Positions 2,247 to 29,205 of a DNA stretch of 56,754 nucleotides are shown in pieces. A model generated the notes under the pieces. It saw only the letters and a program-made list of their open reading frames with translations, did no database searches and had not been told where the DNA came from. The stretch is taken from assembly GCA_013152325.1 (NCBI GenBank), contig JAADGN010000139.1, positions 1 through 56,754 of the forward strand, given 5' to 3'. This DNA comes from Chloroflexota bacterium. GTDB lineage: Bacteria; Chloroflexota; Anaerolineae; Anaerolineales; Villigracilaceae. Every line of letters begins with the position of its first letter. Position 1 is the first letter of the stretch. The translations under genes and the position numbers were made by a program.

Positions 2247-3017
2247 ATGAAACTGAGGAGAAGCGTATTCATCGCGATCAGCGTACTGCTGCTCGCTTCG
2301 CTGGCTTGCAACCTGGGCGTCTCGGCGCCGACGCCGCCGCAATCCGGTGAACAGGTCGCCACGTCAGTCGCGTTGACGCTGCAGGCGCAGGGCAACCAGC
2401 CGCCGGCAGCCGGGGAACCGCCGCCGGCCACGACGTCCGTCCCGAGCATCACCCCCACCCCAACGATCACGTTGACGCCCACGCCGTCCATCCCGATGGT
2501 CAGCGTGAGCGTAGACACCAACTGCCGCACCGGCCCCGGGAAAATATTCGACTACGTCACCGCGCTTCTGGTGGGAGAGAAGGCCGAAGTCATCGGCAAG
2601 AACACCCCGTCGAATTATTGGGTCATCAAAAAGGGAGGCGCAACCTGCTGGCTGTGGGGCAAGTACGCCACGGTCGAGGGGAACGTAAGCGCAATCCCCG
2701 AAATGCCCTCCCCGCCCACGCCCACGCCGGCTTTACCCAAAGCGCCCAAGAACTTCAATGTGGCGAAGGCCTGCGCCCCGCTCGTGCCGCCGCAGTTCCT
2801 GCTGACGGCCATCCTGACCTGGGGAGACAACTCCGACAACGAGCTCGGCTTCAGGGTCTACCGGGACGGCGCACAGATCGCCGATCTCGGCCCCAACGTC
2901 GGCGGGGCGACAGACACGTTCCCCGTCTTGATGGGCGTTCCCGTCCAATACGGCGTCGAGGCCTACAACGCGACCGGCGCATCCGCCCGCAAGACGTCCG
3001 TGATCACCTGCCCGTAG
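2247..3017 (+). CDS. Lipoprotein with SH3-like and fibronectin-like domains
   Basis: Codes for 256 residues. ATG 2247 is chosen because AGGAG (2236-2240) sits six bases upstream and the protein then begins with a lipoprotein signal, MKLRRSVFIAISVLLLASLAC, with Cys21 as the lipidation site. A Pro/Thr-rich linker follows (about 65-85), then a bacterial SH3-like domain with NCRTGPG and a second Cys in GGATCWLWGKY (about 90-145). A short Pro/Thr linker leads to a fibronectin-III-like domain (LTAILTWGDNSDNELGFRVY, about 190-256). It is probably displayed on the cell surface, perhaps bound to the wall. Its partner is unknown. It has its own promoter and ends at a bidirectional hairpin. Confidence 0.75.
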   Translation: MKLRRSVFIAISVLLLASLACNLGVSAPTPPQSGEQVATSVALTLQAQGNQPPAAGEPPPATTSVPSITPTPTITLTPTPSIPMVSVSVDTNCRTGPGKIFDYVTALLVGEKAEVIGKNTPSNYWVIKKGGATCWLWGKYATVEGNVSAIPEMPSPPTPTPALPKAPKNFNVAKACAPLVPPQFLLTAILTWGDNSDNELGFRVYRDGAQIADLGPNVGGATDTFPVLMGVPVQYGVEAYNATGASARKTSVITCP

Positions 3018-3039
3018 CAAGGCGCATCCCCAACAACAA

Positions 3040-3069
3040 GGGCCGCGCACGCTGCAGCGTGCGCGGCCC
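3040..3069. terminator. Bidirectional hairpin between convergent genes
   Basis: A perfect 30-base palindrome (GGGCCGCGCACGCTG and its complement, centre between 3054 and 3055) lies between the stop at 3017 and the typA stop at 3089. It lacks a T run, but its position between convergent genes fits transcription termination for both. Confidence 0.65.
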
Positions 3070-3088
3070 CTTCCCGTTACATCAAAGC

Positions 3089-4960
3089 CTAATTTTCCAG
3101 CAGCGCTTCTTTCGCTTTTTTGGTCTGCTTGCCGCGCTCGTCGGTGTTGAGAATGCGCTTGCGAATGCGGAATGCCACCGGCGTGATCTCGAGCAACTCG
3201 TCATCGTCCAGGTACTCAATGGCCTCGTCGAGGCTCATCTGGCGCGGCGTCGCCAGGCGGACTTCAATATCGCGGTTCGAATTGCGCATGTTGGTCAGGT
3301 GCTTCTTTTTGCAAACGTTGAGCGCCAAATCGCCGGGACGCGCATACTCGCCCACGACCATCCCTTCGTACACGTCCGTGCCCGCGCCGCAGAAAAGCAC
3401 GCCGCGTTCTTCGGCATTCTTCAAGCCATAGGTCGTCGTCGTGCCCGATTCCCAGGCCACCAACGAGCCCGTATTGCGCGTCGTCATCGCGCCCGCCATC
3501 TTGTCGTAGCTGTGGAAGATGGTGTGCAGCACTCCCATGCCGCGCGTAGCGGTCAAAAATTGATAGCGGAAACCGAGCAGGCCGCGCGTTGGCACGATAT
3601 AAACCAGCCGTATGCTGCCGTCGCCGGTATCCTGCATGTCCTTCATCTGGCCGCGGCGCGAACCGAGCATCTCCACGACCGCGCCCACCGTCTCGGCGCT
3701 GGTCTCGATGTAGACTTCCTCATACGGCTCCAACAGCGTCCCGTCCTTGTCCCTGTGAAAGATCACCTCCGGCCGTGAGATCTGGAACTCGTACCCTTCG
3801 CGGCGCATGGTTTCGATCAGGATCGCCAGGTGCAATTCGCCGCGCCCGGAGACGATGAAGGTCTCGGCGCTGTCCGTCTCGTCCACGCGCATGGCGACAT
3901 TGGTGCGCAGCTCTTCAAAAAGACGTTCACGCAGTTTGCGCGATGTGCTCCATCTGCCCTCACGCCCGGCAAAGGGCGAGGTGTTGACTCCGAAGGTCAT
4001 GCGGACGGTCGGCTTTTCGACGCGGATCGTCGGCAGCGCGACCGGATTCTCCGGATCGGCCAGGGTCTCGCCAATGGCAATTCCCTCCAAACCGGCCAGC
4101 GAGACGATCTCCCCCGCGCTGGCTTCCGTGACCTCGACCCGTTCCAGCCCCTGGTGGATGTACAGATAACGCGCCCGCTCAGGCAGTTCTTGCCCGTCGA
4201 GCGTGATCCGCACCAGGAGCTGTCCGGCTTTCAGACTGCCGGCGAAGATGCGTCCGACGGCAGTCACGCCGCGGTAGTCGTCATAGCCCAGCGTGGTGAC
4301 GAGCATTTGCAGCGGCGCATCGGGGTCCACTTTCGGAGCCGGGATGTGGCGCAGAATAGTCTCGAACAACGGCTGCAGGTCCGGGCCAAGTTCGGGCGAG
4401 AGACCGGCCTGTCCGGTCGTCGCCTTGGCGTAGACGACGGGAAAGTCCGTCTGCTCCTCGGTCGCGCCGAGTTCGATGAACAGGTCAAAGGTCTCGTTGA
4501 GCACGCGTTCGGGTTCGGCGTCCTTGCGATCCACTTTGTTGATCACGACCACAGCCTTGTGTCCCATTTCGAGGGCTTTCTTGAGCACAAACCGCGTTTG
4601 CGGCATGGGGCCTTCGGCGGCGTCCACCAGCAGGAGCACGCCATCCACCATGTTCAGAACGCGCTCGACCTCGCCGCCAAAATCGGCGTGACCGGGGGTA
4701 TCCACAATATTGATCTTGACCGGCTGCTTCGTTTGCGGGTCCAAAATCGAAATGGCGGTGTTCTTGGCAAGGATGGTGATGCCGCGCTCGCGCTCGAGGT
4801 CGTTCGAATCCATGACGCGCTCGGCCACTTTCTGGTTGGCGCGAAACGTGTTCGCCTGGCGGAGGAGGCCGTCAACGAGGGTGGTCTTGCCGTGGTCAAC
4901 GTGGGCGATGATGGCGATATTTCTAAGGTCGGTTCGTTCGATTTGCATAAGAGTACTCAT
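3089..4960 (-). CDS. typA: Ribosome-associated GTPase TypA/BipA
   Basis: Codes for 623 residues, the normal length of TypA, a translational GTPase that binds the 70S ribosome under stress. G motifs are intact: AHVDHGKT (19-26), RGITI (59-63), [11 protein letters not shown] (from 87) and NKVD (about 141). Elongation-factor-like domain 2, the EF-G domain III/V folds and the TypA-specific C-terminal domain ([20 protein letters not shown] region) follow. Start 4960 gives [13 protein letters not shown]; Met5 at 4948 is equally possible because neither has a good binding site. The heptamer repeat of the upstream spacer runs right up to the start codon. It is last in a minus-strand run with ahcY. 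Confidence 0.95.
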
Positions 4961-7490: not shown

Positions 7491-8528
<1,038 letters not shown>

Positions 8529-25792: not shown

Positions 25793-25828
25793 GCGATAAC
25801 ATATTCAAGAATATGAATGTGTTATCGC
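25793..25828 (+). promoter_or_regulatory. Nested palindromic operator over the arsR start codon
   Basis: Outer arms GCGATAACA (25793-25801) and TGTTATCGC (25820-25828) are perfect complements. Inside lies a second perfect inverted repeat, ATATTC (25801-25806) and GAATAT (25809-25814). ArsR/SmtB repressors bind imperfect inverted repeats of this size and AT content. The arsR ATG (25813-25815) is inside the operator. Confidence 0.7.
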
Positions 25829-26163
25829 AGAACACGACGATTGAAGAGACCAGCGAGCTTTTCCAGACCATCGCCTCGGCGGCGCGGTTGGAGATCCTGC
25901 TGGCAATCGGCGCGGGCGAGGCCTGTGTATGCCACCTGGAATCCATGCTGGGATACCGCCAGGCATATATTTCGCAGCATCTGATGGCGCTGCGCAAGGC
26001 CAAGATCATCGAGAGCCGCCGCGAAGGCCGCTATATCTATCATCGCCTGAGAAAACCCGAATTGCTGGACGTGATCCGGCAGGCGGCAGCGTTTACCGAT
26101 TCCAAAACGCTGGCAGCGCCGACGCCGGCCAAAGATTGTTGCTGCCCCAAGTGCATTTCATAA
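25813..26163 (+). CDS. arsR: ArsR/SmtB-family metalloregulator
   Basis: Codes for 116 residues with a winged helix. The metalloid-binding CVC lies in EACVCHLESMLGY (about 36-48), the same place as the ELCVCDL site of E. coli ArsR, and the recognition helix reads RQAYISQHLMALRKAKII. The C-terminus ends in a cysteine cluster CCCPKC, possibly an added As(III) site. It should repress its own operon until arsenite or antimonite binds. The start ATG lies within the operator and has no binding site upstream, so the message is probably leaderless. A truncated CPNC protein and acr3 follow. Confidence 0.9.
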   Translation: MNVLSQNTTIEETSELFQTIASAARLEILLAIGAGEACVCHLESMLGYRQAYISQHLMALRKAKIIESRREGRYIYHRLRKPELLDVIRQAAAFTDSKTLAAPTPAKDCCCPKCIS

Positions 26164-26173
26164 GGAGAGAAAC

Positions 26174-26302
26174 TTGCCGACCGTAAACATTCCGGGCACG
26201 GGATGCCCCAACTGCAAACGCGTGGAGGCGATCGGCCACGAGGCCGCATCCGCCCTTGACCCTGAATGTCATCTCAAGCGATCGGGCGAGGTAAACCCAT
26301 GA
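26174..26302 (+). pseudogene. Truncated thioredoxin-like CPNC protein in the ars operon
   Basis: A TTG start behind AAGGAGAG gives a 42-codon frame with VNIPGTGCPNCKRVEAIG, the beginning of the small redox thioredoxins of the TM0996/MTH895 type. The homologous proteins normally continue for about 40 more residues through a cis-Pro strand; here the reading goes on to ...GEVNP and stops at TGA 26300-26302, overlapping the acr3 ATG. It looks like a deletion remnant that still couples translation of acr3 through ATGA, or a functional minimal CPNC peptide. It is too short to fold as a full thioredoxin. Confidence 0.6.
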
Positions 26303-27381
26303 GCGCATCCACGTCTTCCCTGAGTGTGACAAAAGGGCTGTCCGCCCTCGACCGCTATCTGACGTTGTGGATTTTTCTCGCAATGGCCCTTGGCGTTGGG
26401 CTGGGATATTTCTTCCCCGGCGCGGTAGAAGCATTCAACCAAAAGGTCTCCGTCGGCACGACCAACATGCCCATTGCCGTTGGCCTGATCCTGATGATGT
26501 ATCCGCCATTGGCAAAAGTCCACTACGAAGAACTTGGGGACGTCTTCCGGGATTGGAAGATTTTAGGTTTCTCGTTGATCCAAAACTGGATCATTGGCCC
26601 AATCCTGATGTTCGTTCTTGCGATTGTTTTCCTGCGCGGCTATCCCGAATACATGGCCGGACTCATCATGATCGGGCTGGCGCGCTGCATCGCGATGGTG
26701 ATCGTCTGGAACGAACTGGCCAAGGGAGATTCCGAATACGCTGCCGGGCTGGTGGCTTTCAACAGCATCTTCCAGGTACTTTTCTACAGCGTATACGCCT
26801 ACATCTTCATTACCGTTCTTCCCGGCTGGTTCGGGATACAAGGCCGCATCGTAGACATTACCATCGATGAAATCGCCAAAAGCGTATTCATTTACCTGGG
26901 CATCCCTTTCATTGCAGGATTCCTAACGCGAGCCGCGCTGATACGCATCAAAAGCAAGGCATGGTACGAAACACAATTTATTCCGCGCATCAGTCCGATG
27001 ACGCTGATCGCATTACTTTTTACCATTATGGTAATGTTCAGCCTAAAAGGCAACCTGATCGTCACCATCCCGACAGACGTGATCCGTATTGCCGTTCCGC
27101 TGATACTCTACTTCGTACTCATGTTCCTTGTCAGCTTCTGGATGGGCCACAAAATCGGCGCAGACTACTCCAAGACGACCACATTGGCATTCACCGCAGC
27201 CAGCAACAACTTCGAACTGGCCATTGCCGTGTCAGTCGCCGTTTTCGGGATCAACTCCGGAGCAGCTTTTGCCGCCGTCATCGGTCCTTTGATCGAAGTG
27301 CCCGTCATGATCGGGCTGGTCAACGTTGCCCTTAATTTCAGGAAACGCTTCTTCCAAAAGACTGTTCAATCGATGCAATAG
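26299..27381 (+). CDS. acr3: Arsenite efflux permease ACR3
   Basis: Codes for 360 residues with about ten membrane helices. Family marks: [21 protein letters not shown] (about 54-75), the catalytic-Cys helix [19 protein letters not shown] (Cys near 134) and [17 protein letters not shown] near 298 with the conserved Glu. ACR3 expels As(OH)3 using the proton gradient. The ATG overlaps the stop of the truncated CPNC gene. An arsenate reductase to make arsenite is not in this operon but at 46598, at the end of the phosphate locus. Confidence 0.93.
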
Positions 27382-27384
27382 GAG

Positions 27385-27445
27385 CCCGTCCAAAAAAATG
27401 CGCAGCAGCGACTTCAGGACGGCCAACCCTTGCAGGGTGCTGCGC
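27385..27445. repeat. Hairpin repeat between convergent acr3 and anti-sigma genes
   Basis: The left part (CCCGTCC, A-run, ATGCGCAGCAGCGACTT) resembles 28931-28960 of the nested element further right. GCGCAGCA (27400-27407) pairs with TGCTGCGC (27438-27445) and an inner CCCTTGCAGGG is also palindromic. It may act as a two-way terminator derived from a miniature element. Confidence 0.5.
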
Positions 27446-27687
27446 TATTCACTTGCCTTGCCAAGAAAACTGGTCTGGAGTTTGTCAAAAAGTTCCTGAC
27501 GCCGCTCTGCGGAGATGGCCCTCTTGCCCCGCTCGCGGTACAGGAAAATGGTCTTCCGGGTGGTATCGAGCACAACCTTGCAGTTGTGGCAGGTCGCCAA
27601 ATGCGCGCGCGCTTCGGCGGTCAGGTCTTCATCCAGTTCATTGTCAATGTAATCGGAAAGATATTGCAACAGTTCTTCACAGGTCAT
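27445..27687 (-). CDS. Zinc-finger anti-sigma factor
   Basis: Codes for 80 residues; ATG 27687 is chosen since GGGAGTGA precedes it and MTCEELLQYLSDYIDNELD is the usual beginning. The ZAS motif is visible as HLATCHNC (about 33-40: H-x3-C-x2-C), with the upstream Cys3 or His supplying the fourth ligand. Unlike many anti-sigma factors it has no membrane helix, so it would be a soluble, probably redox- or zinc-responsive inhibitor. It starts five bases after the sigma gene stop codon, in the same operon. Confidence 0.85.
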   Translation of the reverse strand: MTCEELLQYLSDYIDNELDEDLTAEARAHLATCHNCKVVLDTTRKTIFLYRERGKRAISAERRQELFDKLQTSFLGKASE

Positions 27688-27691
27688 GGAA

Positions 27692-28282
27692 TCACTCCCG
27701 GGAAATCGTCGATTCGGCAAACGCCTGACTCAACTGCTCGCGAAGCAGCAGACGCGCACGATGCAAACGGACTTTGGCCGCGCTGACTGAAATCTCCAGA
27801 ATCTGGGCGCACTCTTTGGCGGGCAACCCTTCGACCTCGCTCAAGATGAACATGGCGCGCAGTTTTTCGGGCAAAGCTGCGATAGCCTGGTCGAGATAAC
27901 GGGCAAGCTCGGCCTCCGTCAGTTGCTTTTCCGGAATCTGACTCCAGTCCACGAACGAAACGGGCAGGGGCAGTGCATCGTCCTCGTCCGGCAAATCGGC
28001 CAGGGGACGTTTGGCCCGCAGGCGGTCCAGGCTCAAGTTGTGGACGATACGGTAGAGCCAGGTTCCCAGTCGGGATCGGCCCTCAAATCCATCCAACTTT
28101 TCGAACAGGCGCAGGAAAGCATCCTGCACCACATCTTCAGCTTCGTTTTCGTCGCGGAGCAGTCCCAACGCCAGGCGATAGAGCCGATCGGAGTAAAGCT
28201 CGAACAATTCGCGAAAGGCTTCGGGAGAACGTTCACGCAGGGCGGCCAGCAGGTTCGCATCATCGGGCATGGGTGTATCCAC
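27692..28282 (-). CDS. ECF RNA polymerase sigma factor
   Basis: Codes for 196 residues from GTG 28282; ATG 28270 is an alternative. Region 2 shows YRLALGLLRDENEAEDVVQD with FLRLFEKLDGFEGRSRLGTW, and region 4 shows AIAALPEKLRAMFILSEVEG, ECAQILEISVSAAKVRLHRA. It recruits RNA polymerase to a small regulon. Its own promoter (28289-28315) mirrors the promoter of the divergent membrane-protein genes, so it is probably autoregulated and drives those genes. The zinc-finger inhibitor follows directly. The -10 box lies only seven bases from the GTG, so the message is probably leaderless if GTG is used. Confidence 0.88.
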   Translation of the reverse strand: MDTPMPDDANLLAALRERSPEAFRELFELYSDRLYRLALGLLRDENEAEDVVQDAFLRLFEKLDGFEGRSRLGTWLYRIVHNLSLDRLRAKRPLADLPDEDDALPLPVSFVDWSQIPEKQLTEAELARYLDQAIAALPEKLRAMFILSEVEGLPAKECAQILEISVSAAKVRLHRARLLLREQLSQAFAESTISRE

Positions 28283-28288
28283 TCTTTA

Positions 28289-28315
28289 GACGAAACAAGA
28301 CGGTAAAACGTTACG
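28289..28315 (-). promoter_or_regulatory. ECF-type promoter of the sigma operon
   Basis: On the minus strand CGTAAC (28315-28310) and CGTC (28292-28289) are 17 bases apart. The wider words GTAACGTTT and TTTCGTC are identical to those of the divergent promoter at 28337. They resemble the TGAAAC/CGTA boxes of SigW-like sigma factors. Confidence 0.6.
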
Positions 28316-28336
28316 CGCTGATTTTATCGCAAAACA

Positions 28337-28362
28337 TGTAACGTTTCGACATCGGTTTCGTC
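28337..28362 (+). promoter_or_regulatory. ECF-type promoter of the small membrane-protein genes
   Basis: TGTAAC (28337-28342) and CGTC (28359-28362) are 16 bases apart, matching the spacing of SigW-type promoters. It shares GTAACGTTT...TTTCGTC with the promoter on the other strand. It precedes genes at 28394 and 28515. Confidence 0.6.
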
Positions 28363-28393
28363 AAAAGGGTAGAACGGTTGATGAGGAGACCGC

Positions 28394-28495
28394 ATGAACG
28401 AAACCAGGGACACACTGCTCAAACTCGCGTTGGTATGTCTGCTCTGCATTGGACTGGTGACCGTTATCGCGTTTCTCATCAAGAATCTCTCATAA
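28394..28495 (+). CDS. 33-residue single-helix membrane microprotein
   Basis: Reads MNETRDTLLKLALVCLLCIG followed by a hydrophobic run to IAFLIKNLS. GAGGAG precedes the ATG by six bases. One membrane helix with two cysteines (LVCLLC) is clear. It lies 31 bases downstream of the ECF-type promoter and 19 bases before the DUF2892 gene. No known family. The binding site, promoter and helix argue that it is a real short gene. Confidence 0.65.
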   Translation: MNETRDTLLKLALVCLLCIGLVTVIAFLIKNLS

Positions 28496-28514
28496 TTCCA
28501 CAAGGAGAAAAACG

Positions 28515-28721
28515 ATGAAATTCAACAAAAACATGGGCTCTGCCGACCGGATCATCCGCATTGTTGTGGCCGTCATCTTCGCTTACCTGTACTTCAGCGG
28601 CACCGTGACCGGCACGCTGGGCGTCATCCTGCTGGTGCTGGGCGTGATCTTCGTGCTGACCAGCCTGGTCAGTTTCTGCCCGCTCTACCTGCCCTTCAAG
28701 ATCTCAACACGCGGCAAGTAA
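28515..28721 (+). CDS. DUF2892 (YgaP-like) inner-membrane protein
   Basis: Codes for 68 residues: MKFNKNMGSADRIIRIVVAV followed by two membrane helices and the conserved SFCPLYLPFKIST end, which is diagnostic of DUF2892. AAGGAG precedes the ATG. Members are often linked to rhodanese or sulfide handling. Here it belongs to a probable ECF sigma regulon, next to a membrane microprotein and opposite a zinc-finger anti-sigma gene, which fits a thiol or envelope stress response. It ends at a strong terminator. Confidence 0.88.
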   Translation: MKFNKNMGSADRIIRIVVAVIFAYLYFSGTVTGTLGVILLVLGVIFVLTSLVSFCPLYLPFKISTRGK

Positions 28722-28732
28722 CCCGCCCCACA

Positions 28733-28770
28733 CCCAAAAACAGCCCGGCATGTCCGGGCTGTTTTTGGGT
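28733..28770 (+). terminator. Strong intrinsic terminator
   Basis: CAGCCCGG (28741-28748) pairs with CCGGGCTG (28754-28761), extended by ACCCAAAAA against TTTTTGGGT. The stem plus T run terminates the DUF2892 transcript and could work in both directions. Confidence 0.9.
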
Positions 28771-28800
28771 CTTGGGATCGAGGATAAAACAAATCGCGGA

Positions 28801-28858: not shown

Positions 28859-29038
28859 AGACCTCTTGCATAAGTGCTCATATCGCTGTTCCCGGCGGCG
28901 AGACGCCGCCTAGAGCAAGTTGGTTTAGAACCTGTCCGAAAAATGCGTAGTAGCGACTTTTAGTCGCTGCTTGACGGCTGAAGCCGTTACTACAAAAGAA
29001 TTTTCGGATAGATACTTATTGACTTTTGCAAGAGGTCT
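28859..29038. mobile_element. 180-base miniature inverted-repeat element with a second one nested inside
   Basis: AGACCTCTTGCA (28859-28870) and TGCAAGAGGTCT (29027-29038) are perfect 12-base terminal inverted repeats. Inside, CTGTCCGAAAA (28932-28942) and TTTTCGGATAG (29001-29011) form a second pair (10 of 11), enclosing an 80-base core. That core folds into GTAGTA/TACTAC, AGCGAC/GTCGCT and ACGGCT/AGCCGT stems. There is no coding capacity. The outer ends resemble those of IS5-like elements. No clear target duplication is seen. Confidence 0.7.
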
Positions 29039-29123: not shown

Positions 29124-29130
29124 TCGTCTG

Positions 29131-29205
29131 TCGGGGCGCCGGGATTCGAACCCGGGACCTCTTGCACCCCATGCAAGCGCGCTAGCCGGGCTGCGCCACG
29201 CCCCG
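29131..29205 (-). tRNA. tRNA-Pro, anticodon GGG
   Basis: The minus strand folds as a full cloverleaf: acceptor CGGGGCG/CGCCCCG, D arm GCGC/GCGC, anticodon stem CTTGC/GCAAG with loop ATGGGGT (anticodon GGG), and T arm CCGGG-TTCGAAT-CCCGG. The discriminator base is A, as usual for tRNA-Pro, and CCA is not encoded. A terminator follows. Confidence 0.95.

Follow-up and report, generated by a model that had tools for sequence, protein, structure and literature searches.

An ECF sigma factor and zinc anti-sigma operon with mirrored predicted promoter boxes, a divergent CxxC microprotein–DUF2892 operon and a probable role in thiol stress in a Chloroflexota bacterium

We analysed a 56,754-nucleotide stretch of DNA from a Chloroflexota bacterium (contig JAADGN010000139.1), referred to below as the window. 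It contains an ECF sigma factor gene and an anti-sigma gene on the minus strand and, divergent from them, a 33-residue ORF followed by a DUF2892 gene (Table 1). The ORFs agree with an earlier description made from the letters of the window (the sequence-only reading), which had named the 33-residue protein, the DUF2892 protein and the sigma/anti-sigma operon.

Table 1. Features of the locus (positions in the window)
Feature	Position	Strand	Details
Anti-sigma gene, CHCC zinc-binding type	27445..27687	-	80 aa from ATG 27687; 91 aa from TTG 27720; zf-HC2
ECF sigma factor gene	27692..28270	-	192 aa from ATG 28270; 196 aa from GTG 28282; Sigma70_r2 + r4_2
Predicted sigma-operon promoter box	28286..28314	-	GTAAC (-35) 28310-28314; CGTC (-10) 28289-28292; spacing 17; then TAA
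Predicted microprotein–DUF2892 promoter box	28338..28365	+	GTAAC 28338-28342; CGTC 28359-28362; spacing 16; then AAA
33-residue one-helix membrane microprotein	28394..28495	+	CxxC = C15, C18; AGGAG 6-10 bases upstream
DUF2892/YgaP-like transmembrane protein, 68 aa	28515..28721	+	PF11127
Inverted repeat, T-rich right arm	28726..28776	+	23-nt arms, 91% complementary, 5-nt loop
tRNA-Pro (GGG)	29130-29205	-

The sigma protein consists of regions 2 and 4 only, as is characteristic of ECF sigma factors, and scores 69 bits with PF04542, 61 bits with PF08281 and 113 bits with TIGR02937 (cut-off 42.9). Translation appears more likely to start at ATG 28270 than at GTG 28282, since the closest relative (66% identity) begins at the matching MPDD. 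Among 60 related genomes searched, the best matches outside the organism's own genome are found in G053 (66%), G039 (55%) and G047 (54%), all of which belong to other families of the same order. Eight genomes of the same genus have matches of merely 43–47% identity, which resemble a paralogue on contig C57 of the own genome. Sigma relatives in named genomes (80 loci, 39% identity at most) were set aside as too distant.

The anti-sigma gene starts 4 bases past the sigma stop. Comparison with relatives establishes its predicted zinc site, C-x25-H-x3-C-x2-C with an N-terminal Cys, which is present in 34 of the 35 sequences compared. An ECF sigma factor with an adjacent cytoplasmic CHCC zinc anti-sigma is also the arrangement of SigR–RsrA in Streptomyces coelicolor; the RsrA ligands Cys11, His37, Cys41 and Cys44 have identical spacing, and the N-terminal Cys is needed for oxidative release, as described in PMC4960319. 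Because the window protein misses the cut-off of the RsrA equivalog TIGR03988 (31.5 versus 62.5 bits), we do not name it RsrA. An AlphaFold model (mean pLDDT 85) was compared with the PDB using Foldseek, and all ten matches are anti-sigma chains, each of them weak (best E 0.18, best Z 7.4); PDB sequence searches with the anti-sigma and the DUF2892 protein yielded nothing useful. Zinc sites in soluble anti-sigmas are described as common, often redox-related and sometimes structural (PMC7406223), and since they can be structural, redox sensing by the site in the window is graded as likely rather than demonstrated.

To trace the microprotein, we searched 201 genomes of the order with the 33-residue query, 400 genomes of the order and 396 of the class with a 4-row profile, and 400 genomes of the phylum with a 19-row profile; the first profiles were built from 4–6 sequences each. 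The phylum search gave matches in six genomes, all within the same class. After weak matches (L200–L211, L221–L227 and L229; E of at least 0.0018) had been left out, 27 distinct copies were examined, 19 of them immediately upstream of a DUF2892 gene. Eight have no adjacent DUF2892, and three of these (L192, L194 and L197) are lone CxxC copies right after an apparent pyrG. Members of the family have 31–38 residues and a single hydrophobic helix, and the CxxC motif and the Lys preceding it are invariant in all 22 copies that were aligned. In the one close pair tested, from G606 and G633, 14 of 21 base differences fall in third codon positions, with dN 0.10 and dS 0.7–1.1; the microprotein is therefore under selection. 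Comparison across the family shows the ORF to be a real gene. The window microprotein has no Pfam or NCBIfam match and a homologue in G682 has no Pfam match at E 0.1. The sequence-only reading had called it undescribed as far as known; the protein is conserved across relatives and falls in no Pfam or NCBIfam family. The Lys-rich start suggests an N-inside orientation, with the CxxC close to the cytoplasmic face.

The DUF2892 protein matches PF11127 with 75.6 bits (cut-off 25.3; E 3.4e-21). It lacks a rhodanese domain and is a transmembrane domain alone. DUF2892/YgaP-type proteins as such are common and were found in 10 of 14 control genomes. The inverted repeat behind the gene is the probable terminator of the microprotein–DUF2892 operon; a consensus terminator scan did not list it.

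Outward-facing boxes on both strands, with 9- and 10-base gaps, were the central observation of the sequence-only reading and are exact. GTAACGTTT occurs at exactly two sites in the window, 28306–28314 on the minus strand and 28338–28346 on the plus strand (chance expectation 0.13), and both lie between the sigma/anti-sigma operon and the 33-residue ORF with its DUF2892 (YgaP-TM) gene. The minus-strand copy reads GTAACGTTT-N10-TTTCGTC and the plus-strand copy GTAACGTTT-N9-TTTCGTC. As a test of chance, the 111-bp intergenic stretch was randomized 200,000 times with a first-order Markov model. GTAAC-N16/17-CGTC, a pattern chosen after it had been seen, arose on one or both strands in 0.7% of these versions and on both in 0.001% (1 in 100,000).

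The same box lies just upstream of the sigma gene in all three closest relatives (G053, G039 and G047), and a second copy precedes DUF2892 in two of the three. The outcome that the sequence-only reading had named as refuting it, orthologous sigma genes lacking the motif, was thus looked for and not borne out. In G039 and G047, the second box follows the anti-sigma gene and leads into DUF2892 and a thioredoxin–YgaP-TM fusion. Four further genomes (G219, G633, G597 and G563) have the box both before the sigma gene and before a microprotein–DUF2892 pair. The complete order sigma, anti-sigma, microprotein, DUF2892 is found in G219 (L121) and in the class members L214, L215, L216 and L219, where the box precedes the microprotein. 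In G053, the sigma and anti-sigma genes are on one contig and the box, microprotein and DUF2892 on another. The ends of the two contigs have about 140 bases of anti-sigma sequence in common, in which one difference was seen, consistent with adjacency in the genome; a CMD-family gene lies between. In other families and orders, too, boxes precede both the sigma gene and DUF2892, usually as a tandem and not as a mirrored pair.

For a count, we used the strict pattern G[TC]AAC-N15-18-C[GA]TC-N-AA. It precedes the sigma gene at 17 of 30 loci, DUF2892 at 16 of 30 and the microprotein at 16 of 23 (a denominator of 23 rather than 24, as L198 is under threshold). The corresponding controls are 0, 0 and 0 for reversed patterns, 2, 1 and 1 for the opposite strand, and 0.02, 0.02 and 0.01 for shuffles. 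The remaining 13 sigma loci and 14 DUF2892 loci lack the strict box; several of these are near misses, such as CGTCATA in L214 and CGTCTAT in G039. Of the sequence that the sequence-only reading took as the binding site, relatives do not conserve the sixth base, G, or the TTT ahead of CGTC; TT(T) two bases past GTAAC and AA two bases past CGTC are mostly conserved. A longer motif than the one first proposed was needed.

Two promoter dialects can be distinguished: window-type sigma factors go with GTAAC..CGTC, their sister sigmas (43–50% identity) with G[CT]AAC..CATC. For some loci, the dialect was assigned from the box after the anti-sigma gene or before the microprotein. CGTC- and CATC-type sigmas form separate clades (support 0.998). 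All 9 CGTC-type sequences have Asp at residue 86 in region 2 and all 18 CATC-type sequences have Met there, a correlation confounded by descent because the two types form two clades. The box of G417 (L218) ends in CATC. Both dialects occur in the own genome. Besides the window pair, it has a CATC-type sigma gene on C57, and boxes precede that sigma gene and a pair encoding a zinc-ribbon protein and a protein resembling protein disulfide oxidoreductase (PDO).

The genome scan suggested in the sequence-only reading was uninformative: GTAAC(14-18)CGTC gives 78 matches versus 161 in the reversed control, and therefore no regulon can be read from the loose motif. The regulon is definable by the longer, tight box alone. 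Over 121 genomes of the order, GTAACNTTN13-14CGTC has matches in 66 genomes with controls as high or higher, and for this reason solely sites with matching gene context were used. Apart from the two window sites, the own genome shows no convincing copy of the tight CGTC box. A third tight site (window 7558–7586) is without TTT and was taken as chance, and no convincing gene follows a CATC site at C49:20697. Beyond the microprotein and DUF2892, no redox gene of the own genome lies behind a tight box, nor does its thioredoxin system; the redox regulon therefore rests on relatives.

In 14 genomes with the system, the tight box is found in 22 places, compared with six in the reversed control. By inspection, 16 of the 22 precede sigma, microprotein or DUF2892 genes, two precede thioredoxin reductase and one precedes an OsmC gene. 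Thioredoxin reductase (TrxB) lies behind a box in G612 and G417, OsmC in G039 and G009, rhodanese in G009 and DUF302 in G040. Genes led by the sister dialect encode PDO, rhodanese, OsmC and DUF302; PDO was recognized by eye in nine of ten loci where another box follows the anti-sigma gene, and the one sister-dialect PDO tested by model matches TIGR02187 (276 bits; cut-off 185). Two box-led places have no clear gene (G563:C476 and G597:C178), and a 100-residue protein of no assigned family lies behind G606:C189. DUF302 excepted, the genes led by boxes in relatives have thiol, persulfide or peroxide functions, as judged by this comparison.

The PDO-like gene behind the CATC-dialect box of the own genome (L255, C57, minus strand, ~2536–3489) contains an in-frame TGA, and so do the PDO-like genes of L016, L018, L024, L029, L032 and L038. 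The own genome has a tRNA-Sec match above cut-off (70.5 bits). Because the TGA sits exactly at the Cys of homologues (VFVTPT-U/C-PYC; L017, L019, L020, L022 and L030), the product is probably a selenocysteine protein. In L016, L017, L019, L022, L024 and L253, a zinc-ribbon-like protein of 66–72 residues, which ends in GG.GCT and has an LDYNGLL motif, is encoded downstream of the second box and ahead of the PDO gene; the L019 protein, the one compared with Pfam, has no match there.

Taken together, the locus is probably an autoregulated thiol (disulfide or persulfide) stress system resembling SigR/RsrA, in which the ECF sigma factor drives its own operon and the divergent microprotein–DUF2892 operon. 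The mirrored boxes would be the −35/−10 promoters of the adjacent sigma factor, which would read both operons from them. The cytoplasmic CHCC zinc anti-sigma would hold the sigma factor until its cysteines became oxidized or persulfidated; zinc and sigma factor would then be set free, as in RsrA. The signal would be thiol oxidation or persulfide. The output would contribute to thiol–disulfide or persulfide balance, partly at the membrane, where the small dithiol (CxxC) protein would work with DUF2892.

Larger proteins are often regulated by small membrane proteins. The microprotein might itself be regulatory, serving the anti-sigma as an accessory membrane sensor or feedback factor, and not an effector acting with DUF2892. 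Its co-induction with the sigma factor in the proposed circuit and the copies without an adjacent DUF2892 are in line with such a role. However, the microprotein accompanies DUF2892 where the sigma operon is elsewhere (e.g., L195, L196 and L213) and also at L120, which has a Crp/Fnr gene in place of the box. As the pairing persists without a nearby sigma operon, the microprotein follows DUF2892 rather than the anti-sigma, and we consider the accessory role unlikely.

The surroundings of the locus bear on a second alternative, in which the ECF circuit answers a different stress (arsenic, metals or envelope damage) and the thiol genes are incidental. An ArsR regulator and an ACR3 arsenite pump adjoin the anti-sigma gene, and dithiols are also attacked by arsenite and metals. 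On the other hand, the neighbours read in G039, G047, G053 and G219 include no ars genes and instead comprise VKOR, a Trx–YgaP fusion, rhodanese and a CMD-family gene, and no tight box precedes ars genes in the own genome. This makes another stress quite improbable. As to the flanks themselves, window positions 25813–27381 hold the ArsR-type regulator, a short thioredoxin-like fragment and the pump; the fragment (~42 residues, resembling the beginning of MTH895/ArsE family proteins) appears truncated and overlaps the pump start. A 21-nt near-repeat (90%) at 27394–27414 and 28939–28959, beside hairpin-forming sequence, flanks the system on both sides, and 28859–29038 has 17-nt inverted ends and is possibly a small mobile element.

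A reading of the mirrored GTAACGTTT pair as an inverted-repeat operator, bound by a dimeric repressor or activator, in place of two promoters is highly improbable: in the window alone the pair forms an inverted repeat around the divergent start, AAACGTTAC-N23-GTAACGTTT, but boxes in relatives always point to the gene with 16–17 bases to CGTC, and the single tandem boxes of L012, L121, L216 and L219, one per operon and hundreds of bases apart, mostly refute the operator.

We therefore return to the autoregulated thiol-stress system, which we file as a variant of autoregulated ECF systems that would work like SigR–RsrA. The box recognized by SigR is GGAAT/GTT. As in the SigR–RsrA system, thioredoxin-system genes lie behind the box, here in relatives of the window system. 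The window differs in its box (GTAAC/CGTC), in its anti-sigma, which is below the RsrA equivalog cut-off, and in an output centred on DUF2892 and a membrane microprotein.

The DUF2892 protein shares the PF11127 transmembrane domain with E. coli YgaP. The E. coli operon is self-regulated and thiol/sulfide-responsive, ygaVP being repressed by sulfide-responsive YgaV (PMC9774250). In contrast to YgaP, the window protein has 68 residues without a rhodanese domain and is joined by the extra microprotein, and its control would be by an ECF sigma factor and not by an ArsR repressor. A DUF2892 gene is also reported about 10-fold up in sulfide oxidation (PMC5358917). In Bradyrhizobium, the stress regulator NnrR controls an operon that groups DUF2892 with the thioredoxin TrxC and an FAD oxidoreductase; unlike the window system, its control is of the Crp/Fnr type, and the accessible part of the report mentions no microprotein (PMC6710368). 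G152 (L120/L256) resembles this operon, with a microprotein–DUF2892 pair that has no ECF box and lies downstream of a Crp/Fnr-type gene. A perfect TGTGAC-TTA-GTCACA palindrome is situated between the Crp/Fnr-type gene and the pair. The arrangement suggests an exchange of regulator. A partial search of the literature, with the published ECF group classification outside its range, found no ECF–DUF2892 or CxxC-microprotein system.

We tentatively suggest, as a conceivable if doubtful extension, that the microprotein may be the founder of a new membrane-embedded dithiol family in which electrons or sulfane sulfur move between thioredoxin-type proteins of the cytoplasm and YgaP-like DUF2892, a minimal membrane thiol/persulfide relay governed by an ECF sigma factor of its own. 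DUF2892/YgaP-type proteins are linked through a conserved regulatory code to thioredoxin reductase, protein disulfide oxidoreductase, rhodanese and the CxxC microprotein, and this makes the function of DUF2892/YgaP directly testable. The two dialects belong to separate sigma clades and occur together in one genome, and so provide a natural system for ECF sigma insulation.
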